From Nitrospirales bacterium LBB_01 (GTDB lineage Bacteria; Nitrospirota; Thermodesulfovibrionia; Thermodesulfovibrionales; Magnetobacteriaceae), in the NCBI GenBank assembly GCA_004376055.2, contig CP049016.1:1612001-1676000 (forward strand): a stretch of 64,000 nucleotides of DNA, given 5' to 3'. Below the pieces are notes generated by a model, which was not told the origin of the DNA, did not search any database, and saw only the letters and a program-made list of their open reading frames with translations. A program made the position numbers and the translations under genes. Each line of letters begins with the position of its first letter. Position 1 is the stretch's first letter. Positions 16,502 through 33,044 of this stretch are shown here, piece after piece.

Positions 16502-16599
16502 TGGCGAGAGCGTGTGGGAATCGAACCCACCCTTCCCACTTTTGGCAGGAAACACCGGATTTGAAGTCCGGGGGGGACACCAGAGCCCCATACACTCCC
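16502..16599 (-). tRNA. selC: tRNA-Sec (selenocysteine, anticodon TCA)
   Basis: 98 nt including encoded CCA. Features of SelC: 8-bp acceptor (GGGAGTGT with ACGCTCTC, including G-U pairs), anticodon arm CCGGACTTCAAATCCGG with TCA, a long variable arm, T-arm GTGGG-TTCGATT-CCCAC, discriminator G. It implies that the organism inserts selenocysteine at some UGA codons. No selenoprotein, selA, selB or selD lies in this window. Confidence 0.95.
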
Positions 16600-26538: not shown

Positions 26539-26790
26539 ATGACCACAACGATTAAAGCCCGAATATCACACGGAGTGATAGAGCCTCTGGAGGAAATGGA
26601 TTTTCCGGAGGGGAAAGAAGTGTTTATTACCATTACTGAAATTCCCGCCAATAATGAAGTTGCTGATTTAAACAAAGCTGATATTTGGGAAAATGACCCT
26701 TTATTCACACTGGCTGGGATATTTGATAGTGGATTAGGGGATCTGGCAGAAGAACATGATAAGTATCTTTATTGTCAAAAAGATAAGTAG
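26539..26790 (+). CDS. DUF104 (AF2212-like) antitoxin
   Basis: 83 residues starting TTTIKARISHGVIEPLEEMDFPEGKEVFI, the classic DUF104 swapped-hairpin barrel. These proteins pair with VapC-type PIN toxins. Ribosome site GGGAGG 8 nt before the ATG, with TATAAT at about 26502 suggesting its own promoter. The toxin gene follows after 6 nt. Confidence 0.88.
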   Translation: MTTTIKARISHGVIEPLEEMDFPEGKEVFITITEIPANNEVADLNKADIWENDPLFTLAGIFDSGLGDLAEEHDKYLYCQKDK

Positions 26791-26796
26791 TAGGAT

Positions 26797-27216
26797 ATGC
26801 GTGTCGTTTTTGTTGATACCAGTGCGTTAGTGGCGTTTTTCGATAAAGCTGACCAGCATCATCCAGCAGCCGTAGAGAAAATGGAAAACATTAAACGTAC
26901 GCAATTAACGCTTCTCCTGACAGATTTTGTATTTGACGAGACTATTACCGCTGTTGTGAAAAAAATTAATCAAAAAACAGCAGTTAAAATGGGAGAGTTT
27001 CTTTTAAGTAGTAATATCATAGAGTTTGTATGGCTTACGGAAACGCTTAAAGAGAGAGCTTGGGAGTACTTCAAAAAATATACAGACAAGATTTATTCTT
27101 TTACAGATTGTACAAGTTTTGTATTGATGGAAGACAGAGGGTTACAGCATTACTTCTCTTTTGACGAGGATTTTAAAAGAGCTGGGTTTATTGAGTTTAC
27201 CCACGAGGTTATATAA
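26797..27216 (+). CDS. vapC: PIN-domain ribonuclease toxin (VapC family)
   Basis: 139 residues with the PIN acidic residues: D7 in FVDTSALVAF, E48 in FVFDETIT, D104 in YSFTDCTSFVLM and D123/D125 in FDEDF. VapC toxins cut tRNA or rRNA in a Mg-dependent way and are held inactive by the cognate antitoxin, here the upstream DUF104 protein. Length and gene order are normal; nothing indicates decay. Confidence 0.9.
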   Translation: MRVVFVDTSALVAFFDKADQHHPAAVEKMENIKRTQLTLLLTDFVFDETITAVVKKINQKTAVKMGEFLLSSNIIEFVWLTETLKERAWEYFKKYTDKIYSFTDCTSFVLMEDRGLQHYFSFDEDFKRAGFIEFTHEVI

Positions 27217-27785: not shown

Positions 27786-28652
27786 ATGAAAAGTTTTATT
27801 GGAAAGAAGTCGTTTAAGTATGGTGCATTAGTGGTTTTATTGGTTTTGGTTTTGGCTGTGGTTGCATACGCTGCAACAGTTCCTTACACCTTTAGCTCCG
27901 GCACAACTGCTAAATCCAGCGAAGTTAACAGTAACTTCACCTATCTTGCCAACAGAAGTTGGGAACTGAGCAGTAGTAATTTGTATTACAGCAATGGGAA
28001 TGTTGGGATTGGGGAATCAAGTCCAATGGGACTTCTACAGGTTGGAGGAACTTCCAGCGGTTCACTGGGGAAGATTTATTTTGGCAATACAAATAGTAGT
28101 TATGGTGCTATTGGATTTGTATCGATTTATAGATGGTTTCAGATAGTGTCACAAGTATCAAATGGAAGCATGGATTTTATAATAAATGGAGGAACTTGGA
28201 CTTGGCAGGATTCTGGAGGAACTGAATACATGAGATTGATGGATGAAGAATCTGGTAGCACTAAAAAAGGATATTTAGGCATAGGCACATCTGTCCCAAC
28301 CTACCCTCTCCACATGGCAAGCGGCGCCTACGTAACAACCGGTGGAGTTTGGACAAATGCCTCAAGCAGAGCGTATAAGGAGCACATAAAAGAGTTATCG
28401 TCTGAAACAGCGCTGGAGGCTTTTGAGCAGCTCAAACCAGTTACATTTAATTATAAAACTGATAAGTCTGATAAGCACATTGGTTTTATTGCAGAAGATG
28501 TCCCTGAGATTATAGCAACCAAGGACAGAAAGGGTTTAAGCTCAATGGATGTTGTAGCTCTGCTTACAAAGGTTGTTCAGGAACAGCAAAAGACTATAGC
28601 GACATTATCAGAAAAAGTTGAGAGGCTTGAAAATAAAAGTGAGGCAAGGTAA
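27786..28652 (+). CDS. Secreted protein with C-terminal peptidase S74 (tail-spike chaperone) domain
   Basis: 288 residues. Signal peptide at about 1-29 (basic MKSFIGKKSFKYG, hydrophobic core, VAYA). The middle has short repeated beta segments like phage tail-fibre or adhesin stalks. Residues about 190-288 are an intramolecular chaperone domain: SRAYKEHIKEL, LEAFEQLKPVTFNY, DKHIGFIAEDVPEI, then a C-terminal coiled coil (VVQEQQKTIATLSEKVERLEN). Such domains trimerise beta-helical fibres and often self-cleave. Probably a surface fibre; not in a prophage context. Confidence 0.85.
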   Translation: MKSFIGKKSFKYGALVVLLVLVLAVVAYAATVPYTFSSGTTAKSSEVNSNFTYLANRSWELSSSNLYYSNGNVGIGESSPMGLLQVGGTSSGSLGKIYFGNTNSSYGAIGFVSIYRWFQIVSQVSNGSMDFIINGGTWTWQDSGGTEYMRLMDEESGSTKKGYLGIGTSVPTYPLHMASGAYVTTGGVWTNASSRAYKEHIKELSSETALEAFEQLKPVTFNYKTDKSDKHIGFIAEDVPEIIATKDRKGLSSMDVVALLTKVVQEQQKTIATLSEKVERLENKSEAR

Positions 28653-28773: not shown

Positions 28774-29436
28774 ATGAAAAAGAACATACTACTACAGTTG
28801 TTGTTTTTGGTGTTACTGCCCTCAATTGTAGTTGCAGCCAGTAGTTTTTGGGACAGCTTAGTGTGGGACACAGATAAATGGGATTCGTCCGATAACTCAA
28901 CAACTACAACCACAGCAATTGGCGGCACAACCACTACGAAAGTCTCAACAACTACAACGACAGTAAACATTGACAACATAACGGGTTCAGCCAAATCAAA
29001 GGTCATCTATTCGCTGCCGTATTTCCATACAGAACCAAGCGCCGTTACCTACTGCATATTATCAAATCAGTCATCGGATAACACAAGCGCTGTGACATTT
29101 GCAGTAAAAGCTAATTCGGCAAGTAACGCAGCAGGTACGGTAAATACATTCCCATCAGCACCGCTTTACGCAAAAATGACGCAGATGCTCACCTTTAGCG
29201 GTTATTCGGTAACATGTGGAAACAGTGCGATAGATTTAACATCTGAACTCAGTGGCGCTACATCTTATGGCGGTGTGTTATCAATTTATTCAACAGGGAC
29301 AGCGTTAAACTGTACCAATATAACGATAAGCTGCTTTCAGGGGACAACAACACCAAGAAGAAATTTAGCCGGTTATCTTTGTCAGGATAACAGCACGGCT
29401 GGTTCTGCTGGAAAAAGTATTGTGGTTGGATACTAA
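28774..29436 (+). CDS. Secreted protein of unknown family, Thr-rich linker (paralogue 1)
   Basis: 220 residues from MKKNILLQLLFLVLLP, chosen over upstream ATGs because AGGAGA lies 7 nt before it and a signal peptide begins here (cleavage near VVAA). Then a short Trp/Asp-rich segment (FWDSLVWDTDKWDSSD), a Thr-rich linker (about residues 44-68), and a beta-rich domain similar to the whole of the next gene product: SLPYFHTEPSAVTYCILSN and CFQGTTTPRRNLAGYLCQDN near the C-terminus. No known family recognised. Likely exported; disulfides plausible. Confidence 0.7.
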   Translation: MKKNILLQLLFLVLLPSIVVAASSFWDSLVWDTDKWDSSDNSTTTTTAIGGTTTTKVSTTTTTVNIDNITGSAKSKVIYSLPYFHTEPSAVTYCILSNQSSDNTSAVTFAVKANSASNAAGTVNTFPSAPLYAKMTQMLTFSGYSVTCGNSAIDLTSELSGATSYGGVLSIYSTGTALNCTNITISCFQGTTTPRRNLAGYLCQDNSTAGSAGKSIVVGY

Positions 29437-29461
29437 ACTAAAAAAAACGGAGGAAAATGAA

Positions 29462-29989
29462 ATGAGAAAACTTACAGCGATATTGTTAACGGTTATTTTG
29501 GCATTAGTAACAACAGTTATTTTTAGTGAGGCAGCAAGCACAGTCTATTATTATTTACCGTATATGCATACTAACGCCAGCGGCGTAACTTATTGTATCG
29601 TGTCAAACTTGTCGTCTGAGACCCTGAACACAACATTTACAGTAGGCTCAAATACAACAGGTGTGACCACCGGCACAGCAAATAATTTATCAACGATAGC
29701 TGCAAACACAACTAAACAGATGACATTTTATCAGCAGACAGTCAGTTTTGGTTCAACAACAGTCACAATAGCGTCAGATGCAGCTGATACTTCAACATCA
29801 TACGCAGGAACATTGACTTTTACATCAACAGCAGAATTTGCTACAACCGGCACCAAAGCCTCATGTCTAAGCGTTGTGATGGCATGTTTTCAGGGAACAA
29901 CGACTCCAAGACGTAATCTGATAGGCTATGCTTGTAAAGATAACGGCACAGACGGCCCCGGCGGAAATAATAATGTGATCGGATATTAA
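29462..29989 (+). CDS. Secreted protein of unknown family (paralogue 2)
   Basis: 175 residues. ATG at 29462 after CGGAGGAAA; signal peptide about 1-25 ending FSEAAS. The mature part is one beta-rich domain paralogous to the C-terminal domain of the previous gene: YLPYMHTNASGVTYCIVSNLS, Thr/Ser-rich strands, and CFQGTTTPRRNLIGYACKDN, ending in IGY. It lacks the Thr-rich linker. Four cysteines are shared between paralogues. Function unknown. Confidence 0.7.
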   Translation: MRKLTAILLTVILALVTTVIFSEAASTVYYYLPYMHTNASGVTYCIVSNLSSETLNTTFTVGSNTTGVTTGTANNLSTIAANTTKQMTFYQQTVSFGSTTVTIASDAADTSTSYAGTLTFTSTAEFATTGTKASCLSVVMACFQGTTTPRRNLIGYACKDNGTDGPGGNNNVIGY

Positions 29990-30330: not shown

Positions 30331-31065
30331 TTAAACATTAAATAACAAGAAATCTAAAAGGTTATCTTCAAGAACAAGGCGAAAGCCTATGTGGAAATCC
30401 TTGAAGTGTGGGTCGTTAAGGCTTCTATAGGAGGAACGTTCAAATTTTGGAAAAGTTCGCCAAGATCCTCCGCGCATCACACGGTTGTCGCCGCCTTCTG
30501 TACAAACAGGACTTTTGACAGAGTGTTTGGTGTAAGCATTCTCATCATACACATCCTCCACCCACTCCCATACGTTACCGCTCATATCGTTTAACCCTAA
30601 GCCGTTAGGCCTCTTTTGTCCTACAGGATGTGGCATCATGCCTGAGTTACCATCATGCCAGGCATAATCTCCTACGCTGTCCTCATCACTTGTCCCACCC
30701 CACTTCTCATCCTTTCCGCCGCTCCTACAGGCATATTCCCACTCTGCCTCAGTCGGTAAACGATACTTCTTTCGTGTTTGCATATTTAACTTATTAATAA
30801 ACTCCTGAACATCATACCAGCTTACCTGTTCAACAGGATAATGTAAACCTGTTGATAAAGATGGATTACGCCCCATTACTTCTATCCATTCTTTCTGAGT
30901 TACGGGATATTTACCTATATAGAAATCATCAAGACAAACCTTATGAACCGGTCTTTCCTCAGGCTCTCCGTCACCAAACACATCTCCCATCTGATAGCAG
31001 CCGCCCTTTACAAATACAAACACCATACCGGTTATCGGACATGTATAATCCTTTTGATGACTCAT
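30331..31065 (-). CDS. SUMF1/EgtB-type formylglycine-generating enzyme-like protein
   Basis: 244 residues from MSHQKDYTCPITGMVFVFVKGG. FGE-sulfatase fold: GCYQMGD, ERPVHKVCLDDFYIGKYPVTQKEW, YRLPTEAEWEYACR, NGLGLNDMSGNVWEWVED and GGSWRTFPKFERSSYRS. The region that holds the copper-binding cysteines of true formylglycine enzymes reads ERSSYRSLN and has none, so it probably does something else (e.g. PvdO-like or a structural role). ATG at 31065 chosen because TATAAT (31072-31077) ends 6 nt before it; an upstream ATG at 31119 would lie upstream of that promoter. Confidence 0.85.
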   Translation of the reverse strand: MSHQKDYTCPITGMVFVFVKGGCYQMGDVFGDGEPEERPVHKVCLDDFYIGKYPVTQKEWIEVMGRNPSLSTGLHYPVEQVSWYDVQEFINKLNMQTRKKYRLPTEAEWEYACRSGGKDEKWGGTSDEDSVGDYAWHDGNSGMMPHPVGQKRPNGLGLNDMSGNVWEWVEDVYDENAYTKHSVKSPVCTEGGDNRVMRGGSWRTFPKFERSSYRSLNDPHFKDFHIGFRLVLEDNLLDFLLFNV

Positions 31066-31071
31066 TAGTTG

Positions 31072-31100
31072 ATTATACACTATAATATATAAATTTTTAA
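31072..31100 (-). promoter_or_regulatory. Possible promoter for SUMF-like gene
   Basis: Minus strand: consensus TATAAT at 31072-31077, 17-nt AT-rich spacer, weak -35 TTAAAA (31095-31100). The -10 ends 6 nt before the ATG, again implying little or no leader. Confidence 0.4.
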
Positions 31101-31165
31101 ATCTAAAGCAATTGTTCATATTTTCTTAGTTGACTCAACTGTTACTAAAGCGTTAATTTAAATGT

Positions 31166-31582
31166 ATGGAGGGAGTGGAAATCCTTGACGTATCAGGAGA
31201 CATCGGCCTAAGGGTGACATCCGCCACAATGGAGGAGTTATTTGTGAAAGCGGCATGTGCACTGTTTTCGCTTATTACGGATTTTGAAAAAATCAGCGCT
31301 CTTGAGAGCAGAGAGATTGCTCTTGCTGCGGATTCCTTAGATGACCTCATTGTTGCGTGGTTTAATGAGCTCATATATAATTTTGATGCTTTTGGGTTTC
31401 TATGTAAAGATGTATCCATAAATGAGCTGTCCCAAAGACACATCAAGGCTGCCGTAAAAGGAGAGATTTTTGATGGGACAAGACATAACAGCGGTTTTAT
31501 GATAAAAGCTGCCACGTATCATAATCTGAAGTTAGTGTGTGAGCCGTCTTTTTCATCTTTGGAGATAATTCTTGATATATGA
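31166..31582 (+). CDS. Archease (RtcB cofactor)
   Basis: 138 residues: DVSGDIGLRVTSATMEELFVKAA, then LDDLIVAWFNELIYNFDAFGF, and VKGEIFDGTRHN, the conserved archease core with the metal-binding Asp residues. Archease speeds guanylylation and turnover of the RtcB RNA ligase, whose gene follows after 19 nt. ATG at 31166; a GTG three codons in is also possible. Confidence 0.9.
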   Translation: MEGVEILDVSGDIGLRVTSATMEELFVKAACALFSLITDFEKISALESREIALAADSLDDLIVAWFNELIYNFDAFGFLCKDVSINELSQRHIKAAVKGEIFDGTRHNSGFMIKAATYHNLKLVCEPSFSSLEIILDI

Positions 31583-31601
31583 GCGTGGAGGATAGAAAAT
31601 T

Positions 31602-33044
31602 ATGACAGAACAATTAATACGAAAAGATGAGAACACGATAGAGGTACCGATAGGTTACAAGCCGGGAATGCGGGTGCCGGGGCTGATTTATCTAAATGCG
31701 CAACTGGAGAAATTTCTTGAGCCGCAGGCTATAGCACAGGTTGCCAATGTAGCCACACTGCCGGGCATCGTGGGTTATTCCCTTGCAATGCCGGACATTC
31801 ACACAGGCTACGGGTTTCCGATTGGCGGCGTGGCGGCGTTTGATTTAAATGATGGGATAATATCGCCGGGCGGAGTTGGTTATGATATAAACTGCGGAGT
31901 CAGACTTTTGAGAAGTAATCTCACTAAACAACAGGTGCTTCCGCACATTAAAGACCTTGTTGCTGCCATATACGCTAATGTGCCCTCTGGGGTTGGCTCT
32001 AAGGGTAAGATTAAACTAACCTCGGACGAGCAGAAACGTGTCGCATTAAAGGGTGCTCTCTGGGCAATTGAGCAGGGTATGGGCATCGGCTCTGATTTGG
32101 AAAAAACCGAGTCAGAGGGTATGATGTCAGGTGTGGATGCGTCATCAATAAGTGAAAAAGCCTATGAACGCGGCAGAAACCAGATGGGAACACTGGGCTC
32201 AGGGAATCATTTTATAGAAATTCAATATGTCAGCGAAATATTTAACGAAAAAGCCGCTCAGGCATTTGGACTTTTTGAGGGGCAGGTCACAGTTATGATT
32301 CACACGGGATCTCGCGGGCTTGGGCATCAGGTGTGCACCGACTTTCTGCCGCTTATGGAACGCGCCTCTAAAAAGTATGGTATTGAGCTGCATGACAGGG
32401 AGTTGGCCTGTGCTCCGTTTAATTCACAGGAGGCAGAGGATTACTTTTCAGCTATGAAGGGTGCTGCCAATTATGCATGGGCAAATCGTCAGTGTATTAT
32501 GCACCTTGTGTCGGAGTCTTTCGTTACGGCAATGAGAGGATCCCCGTCAAGTGTCGGGCTAACTCTCATCTATGACATTGCACACAACATTGCAAAGGAG
32601 GAAACCCACAGAGTTGGAGGGCGTGACGTCAGGCTGATAGTGCATAGAAAGGGAGCTACAAGAGCGTTTCCGGCTGGTCACCCAGAGCTTCCAGATATTT
32701 ATAAGGACGTAGGACAGCCGGTCTTGATTCCCGGCGATATGGGGCGCGCCTCTTTTGTGCTTATTGGCACTCAGGAGGCTATGACAGATACTTATGGCTC
32801 AACCTGTCACGGCGCTGGCAGACTGCTTTCTCGCCACGGCGCCATAAAGGCCGCTAAAGGCAGGCAAATCTGGAAAGAGCTGCTTGATGCCGGCATCACA
32901 GTTACAAGTGCCGGAGGCGGCACACTTGCAGAGGAAATGCCGGAGGCTTATAAGAATATCAATAATGTTATCAGCGTTGTTGACAGCGCCAGGATTTCTC
33001 AGAAAGTCGCGATGCTCAAACCAATCGGCGTTGTAAAAGGATAA
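31602..33044 (+). CDS. rtcB: RNA-splicing ligase RtcB
   Basis: 480 residues. Joins 2',3'-cyclic phosphate or 3'-phosphate RNA ends to 5'-OH ends using GTP and Mn2+. Motifs: MPDIHTGYGFPIGGVAAFD, SPGGVGYDINCGVRLLRS (Mn-binding Asp and Cys), GTLGSGNHFIEIQ, MIHTGSRGLGHQV, and near the end CHGAGRLLSR with the His that becomes guanylylated. Full length. Operon with archease; probably tRNA or stress RNA repair. Confidence 0.96.
   Translation: MTEQLIRKDENTIEVPIGYKPGMRVPGLIYLNAQLEKFLEPQAIAQVANVATLPGIVGYSLAMPDIHTGYGFPIGGVAAFDLNDGIISPGGVGYDINCGVRLLRSNLTKQQVLPHIKDLVAAIYANVPSGVGSKGKIKLTSDEQKRVALKGALWAIEQGMGIGSDLEKTESEGMMSGVDASSISEKAYERGRNQMGTLGSGNHFIEIQYVSEIFNEKAAQAFGLFEGQVTVMIHTGSRGLGHQVCTDFLPLMERASKKYGIELHDRELACAPFNSQEAEDYFSAMKGAANYAWANRQCIMHLVSESFVTAMRGSPSSVGLTLIYDIAHNIAKEETHRVGGRDVRLIVHRKGATRAFPAGHPELPDIYKDVGQPVLIPGDMGRASFVLIGTQEAMTDTYGSTCHGAGRLLSRHGAIKAAKGRQIWKELLDAGITVTSAGGGTLAEEMPEAYKNINNVISVVDSARISQKVAMLKPIGVVKG

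Follow-up and report, generated by a model that had tools for sequence, protein, structure and literature searches.

The tandem genes and their neighbours

The stretch of DNA analysed here (the window, 64,000 nucleotides) belongs to a genome assembled as a single contig of 3.27 Mb. It contains two tandem genes, P0001 and P0002, each with a Shine-Dalgarno-like sequence and each encoding a protein with a Sec-type signal peptide (Table 1). A preliminary description of this DNA had reported two tandem exported proteins with common motifs, both ending in GY, and this was confirmed: both open reading frames are real and correctly placed, and their products, which are 45% identical, have in common LPYxHT...VTYCIxSN, CFQGTTTPRRNLxGYxCxDN, and a GY end. 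The common part is a C-terminal domain of about 150 aa with four conserved cysteines. The likeness is not due to chance, since P0002, used as a query against its own genome, retrieved P0001 at E 4.5e-27 and 17 other matches. The Trp/Asp-rich head and the Thr-rich linker that had been ascribed to one of the two proteins are present in P0001 and conserved in three further genomes of the same genus. The S74 gene had likewise been correctly placed in front of the pair, the Peptidase_S74 domain being found only in this neighbour (P0003) and not in P0001 or P0002 themselves.

Table 1. Features of the tandem genes and of the preceding S74 gene (window coordinates), and passengers found on other members of the family (loci).
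Feature	Position or locus	Strand	Evidence or remark
P0003, S74 (chaperone of endosialidase) secreted protein	27786..28652	+	Peptidase_S74, PF13884, E 4.7e-14
P0001, cassette member A; 220 aa; signal peptide, Trp/Asp-rich head, Thr-rich linker, C-terminal domain	28774..29436	+	profile E 3e-62
P0001 predicted signal peptide, MKKNILLQLLFLVLLPSIVVA	28774..28836	+	by inspection
P0001 Trp/Asp-rich head, SSFWDSLVWDTDKWDSSDN	28840..28896	+	occupies the passenger slot of other members; kept in L022/L051, L055, L094
P0001 Thr-rich linker	28897..28989	+	comparable linker in many passenger-bearing members
P0001 C-terminal domain, type A	28990..29433	+	
P0001 signature, CFQGTTTPRRNLAGYLCQDN	29332..29391	+	
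P0001 C-terminal tripeptide VGY	29425..29433	+	hydrophobic-small-aromatic-COOH
P0002, cassette member B; 175 aa; signal peptide and stand-alone C-terminal domain	29462..29989	+	profile E 2e-61
P0002 predicted signal peptide, MRKLTAILLTVILALVTTVIFSEA	29462..29533	+	by inspection
P0002 stand-alone C-terminal domain, type B	29534..29986	+	
P0002 signature, CFQGTTTPRRNLIGYACKDN	29885..29944	+	
P0002 C-terminal tripeptide IGY	29978..29986	+	
Passenger: trypsin-like protease	L016, L098		HC...D...GSSGSP visible in L016
Passenger: subtilase (subtilisin-like protease)	L086		
Passenger: PQQ propeller	L013		
Passenger: BNR propeller	L052, L099		
Passengers: SBBP and NHL propellers	L071, L072		
Passenger: Lcl_C	L076		
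Passenger: InlB-B repeats	L014, L088		

Several other features were observed in the window. An interspersed repeat of about 92 bp, which includes CGTACTTTTAGTACG and has 34 matches in the genome, lies upstream of P0001 (28671..28762). Just downstream of the pair, an FGE-sulfatase (SUMF1-like) gene is found on the reverse strand (30331-31119), with a counterpart at L051:2828-3577, and is followed by an archease gene and then an RtcB RNA ligase gene in an operon-like arrangement (31166-33044) and by an MqnA-type menaquinone gene from 33051. An AF2212-like antitoxin and PIN-domain toxin pair is located at 26539-27216, and a tRNA-SeC gene with anticodon TCA, located at 16502-16599 on the reverse strand, points to selenoproteins in the genome.

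A C-terminal domain carried by many exported proteins

The 19 matches of P0002 in the window genome correspond to about 14 genes, distributed over about ten loci. Other genomes of the same genus had 33-50 matches each, and those of other genera of the same bacterial family had 0-15. Ten of the 295 genomes sampled from the phylum had a match: nine belong to one Nitrospirota family, to which the strong domain matches are confined, and the tenth, from another family of the same order, gave a weak match (E 4.9e-8). A contig scan retrieved two contigs of one close relative, the closest named record being the Nitrospirae MAG JADFYB, and no relatives were found in viral contigs or in plasmids. Judging from the JADFYB sample code, the host family presumably includes magnetotactic bacteria and is Magnetobacteriaceae-like.

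Whole open reading frames were gathered around the matches, yielding 137 distinct ORFs, fragments included. The domain is single and C-terminal in these ORFs, and in intact genes the match ends mostly 0-5 residues before the stop codon, and up to 57 residues before it in a subset. Among 125 intact domains, 63 begin at most 45 residues from the N-terminus of the protein, corresponding to a signal peptide and the domain, 18 are preceded by a short head, and 44 by a longer N-terminal part. The passengers (Table 1) are mutually unrelated across the domain-bearing proteins, and in a tree of the 125 domains, the N-terminal architecture switches at least 27 times, indicating that the domain is a shuffled C-terminal module. 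For instance, one clade with full support unites the Trp/Asp-head proteins from the window and from two other genomes with a protein of 680 aa whose N-terminus is different, and BNR, trypsin-like, and unclassified passengers are grouped in another clade. The preliminary description thus understated what is found here: the pair occupies one of about ten loci of this kind, and its common part is a C-terminal domain present on many different proteins. The family is large, unnamed, and defined by this one domain, attached to many unrelated exported proteins.

At one locus (L099, G002:C11:62000-81900), seven passenger-bearing members, mostly with BNR-like repeats and one of them 1473 aa long, were found in tandem. 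The domain copies at L012 (G000:C1:1595769-1595879) and L093 are decayed or truncated, which suggests continuing birth and loss of family members.

Members of the family also form 33 multi-gene clusters, in about 20 of which a copy with a passenger (A) is paired with a stand-alone one (B). Across 17 A+B pairs, the similarity between A copies was correlated with that between B copies (r 0.88, Mantel; 0/5000 permutations), and in nearly all 17, A was closer to the A of other loci than to its own neighbour B. A and B co-diversify as cassettes, shared descent of the whole locus explaining part of this pattern, and the passenger switches while A and B remain paired. The window pair is such an A+B cassette, in which the passenger of A is reduced to the short Trp/Asp head.

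The proposal that the S74 protein and the two paralogues build one surface structure is weakly supported. The S74-A-B trio is kept in 4/4 genomes of the genus (L051, L055, L094, and the window), and a local functional tie between the three genes is possible on this ground. However, this S74 gene is the only one in the genome, against about ten family loci, the other loci being without S74, and several alternative versions of A, of which the "head" form is one, occur within the same domain clade. A single fibre dedicated to these three proteins is thus very improbable. Within the genus, the S74 gene is a conserved neighbour, but it is not a general partner of the family; the general genomic partner is gspD, as described below.

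The four cysteines of the domain are invariant or nearly so, with exactly four in 67/73 members. The last residue of the protein is Tyr in 49, Phe in 16, His in 7, and Ile in 1 of 73 non-redundant members (Y/F/H in 72/73), and Y/F/H ends 10.6% of 615 neighbouring genes taken as a control, a comparison that rests on frequencies among members that are related to one another. Residue -2 is G, T, S, or A in 65/73 members, and residue -3 is mostly hydrophobic, whereas the tail behind the last cysteine varies among members from 4 to 66 residues in length. A fixed end residue despite such a variable tail length suggests a binding partner for the C-terminus, but the terminal aromatic residue could also simply belong to the last structural strand.

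Genes located behind gspD

In the window genome, a gspJ-K-L-M-x-D operon is followed by two family members located after gspD. The product of this gspD scored 392 bits with TIGR02517 (curated cut-off 351), and Pfam reported T2SSK, T2SSM_b, and Secretin in the operon, which identifies a type II secretion system (T2SS). When this gspD was used as a query, an orthologue was found in sixteen genomes of the bacterial family, 15 of which were testable, as one contig stops just past the gene. In 13 of these 15 genomes, from five genera (L122-L125, L127, L129-L136), the next gene on the strand of gspD encodes a family member, but these 13 loci are syntenic and are thus not independent events, and the linkage concerns paralogues and not the window pair. 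In G008 and G012, gspD is present and the next gene is not a family member. The members that follow gspD in the bacterial family are stand-alone copies, and G007, a 92% complete genome of the same bacterial family, has neither gspD nor the domain.

Distant homologues of the domain were also found outside the bacterial family (hhalign probability 96%, E 5e-9). They form the C-terminal part of exported proteins of about 490-530 aa, encoded at five loci (G300, G310 with two, G314, and G253) in two other families. At each of the five loci, the gene comes right after gspD and is read from the same strand, and these long gspD-linked proteins had no match among PDB sequences.

The order gspJ/K/L/M/x/D-then-substrate is that of the Aeromonas Sps-VapA cluster for S-layer secretion, in which the surface protein has 469 aa (PMC4413209), and in Pseudoalteromonas, a T2SS operon is directly followed by the gene encoding Slr4 (PMC7821379). 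By analogy, the stand-alone domain may be an S-layer or fibre subunit that polymerises into a T2SS-exported lattice or filament, the passenger copies being minor subunits, and both the 490-530-aa homologues linked to gspD outside the family and the stand-alone copies that follow it within the family would be compatible with this role. The likeness lies in the post-gspD gene of the T2SS operon, which here applies to paralogues and to the five distant homologues but not to the window pair. In contrast to the VapA and Slr4 systems, a small, cysteine-containing C-terminal domain, stand-alone in the family, has here multiplied and become attached to dozens of unrelated passengers. The 14-50 divergent copies per genome are unlike one major S-layer protein, and none of the solved S-layer proteins was matched by sequence. 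We consider such a subunit rather unlikely, although this explanation overlaps with the display function proposed below.

Other gene arrangements were observed around the distant relatives. In G009, three proteins of 550-1119 aa end in a distant "VPVLT" version of the domain (L118:7937-11149, L190:6315-7967, and L191:6374-9733), and two of the three adjoin TMTC-like genes instead of gspD. Large membrane proteins with C-terminal TPRs (L019:9333-13632, L192:6182-10535, L193:9344-13652, L117:8937-10544, L118:2801-5110, and L188:197-2134) adjoin family members or distant relatives, behind gspD at several loci, and we take them to be reminiscent of TMTC-type O-mannosyltransferases. The vicinity of these genes to family members, together with the Thr-rich nature of the linkers, suggests that the linkers may be glycosylated.

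Comparison with known families and proposed function

In agreement with the earlier view that no described family could be recognised, neither P0001 and P0002 nor any of 73 diverse domain sequences attained the cut-off of a Pfam or NCBIfam model, and the domain profile had no match among PDB sequences at E 10. Weak Pfam and NCBIfam hits to New_glue, Mucin, Lmo2079, PACE-CTERM, and KIS RiPP were rejected as low-complexity or sub-cut-off noise, and the match to DUF5719 (PF18986), found in 2/73 members with a best E of 5.8e-4, is far too weak to establish kinship. With regard to type IV pilins and pseudopilins, no N_methyl match was obtained in P0001 or P0002 at E 10, while the GspJ adjoining a paralogue does match.

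The AlphaFold model of the P0001 domain (pLDDT 34) showed no usable fold; the model of P0002 is all-beta and of moderate confidence (pLDDT 61), the alignments used for folding containing 5 rows. Its top structural neighbours were TM1070 and the Anabaena sensory rhodopsin transducer (ASRT), with Z 7.5 and 7.3, which is below the kinship level. VIA-align gave Z 7.5 and an rmsd of 3.0 over 99 residues between ASRT (PF07100) and this pLDDT 61 model, but homology to ASRT was unsupported by profile-profile comparison (hhalign probability 0.5%, E 0.11). The structural rows beyond ASRT and TM1070 were tied at Z 5-6, and Foldseek returned no match below E 0.07 with the P0002 model.

Galectin- and jelly-roll-like folds, to which the all-beta model bears a loose resemblance, are among these many tied hits, and degradative enzymes are found among the passengers, as might be the case if the domain were an accessory binding domain (e.g., for carbohydrate or mineral) that recurs in secreted proteins and plays no role in export or anchoring. 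However, this explanation is improbable, as restriction to the very C-terminus, a conserved final residue, and a tie to gspD across three families would all be unusual for a binding module.

We favour the view, with a probability of about 0.6, that the domain of about 150 aa serves the T2SS substrates of this lineage as a C-terminal module for export and surface display, because its ancestral copy adjoins gspD. The observations in its favour are the single C-terminal domain, the diversity of the passengers, the terminal aromatic motif, the position after gspD, the A+B cassettes, and the distant gspD-linked homologues. A substrate would enter the periplasm by Sec, fold there with disulfides, and cross the outer membrane through the GspD secretin. 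The C-terminal domain, whose terminal motif may be recognised, would then keep the substrate on the outer surface, and the stand-alone type B partner, encoded next door, would probably help to hold it through a contact between A and B. The displayed cargo would be the rest of the protein, namely a protease, a propeller, or a repeat and, in the window, the Trp/Asp head on its Thr-rich linker. Since nothing is attached to the stand-alone copies, the domain must in addition serve some function in its own right. More tentatively, the domain, perhaps with its hydrophobic-small-aromatic end, might be a transplantable T2SS signal of the whole substrate class, the stand-alone copy being a co-exported docking partner.

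A recurrent C-terminal element on many unrelated exported proteins per genome is also a trait of the GlyGly-CTERM/rhombosortase, PEP-CTERM/exosortase, and MYXO-CTERM systems, and GlyGly-CTERM and MYXO-CTERM are surface-sorting tags. The CTERM tags consist of a short motif, a membrane helix, and a basic tail, whereas the element described here is a folded domain with an aromatic end. A membrane helix with basic residues was not found in the C-terminal tails (e.g., GTDGPGGNNNVIGY), which have a hydrophobic-small-aromatic end instead, and no exosortase (PF09721) was matched in the window genome, whereas the control genome did match. The C-terminal domain of T9SS substrates in Bacteroidota is a folded beta domain, a transplantable signal that directs both the export and the attachment of varied cargo. 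The present domain is found in a different phylum, is linked to gspD and not to T9SS genes, and had no match to the Pfam families of this signal (Por_Secre_tail, CHU_C) among the 73 members at E 0.01; SprA (PF14349) gave no match in the window genome, but none in the control genome either. In Vibrio cholerae, the Ig-fold of VesB, an accessory domain of beta-sandwich type, contains information for secretion by the T2SS and is graftable (PMC12369372). In that case a single substrate is involved, together with the PDZ domain of EpsC, whereas here a whole substrate family would be concerned, and the GspC-like protein is too short for an obvious PDZ domain.

Taken together, the sequence comparisons indicate that the domain is a new C-terminal module that is linked to type II secretion and probably serves in surface display. 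As one detectable domain is found on repeat proteins as well as on proteases and propellers, and its simplest copy accompanies gspD, the list of T2SS cargo would become readable from sequence, and domain grafting would make the question of the T2SS signal testable. If the more tentative reading as a transplantable signal is true, the domain would be a T2SS address tag recognisable in sequence. The display function also predicts 14-50 surface proteins per genome in the poorly cultured Nitrospirota of this family, proteins that are now annotated as hypothetical.
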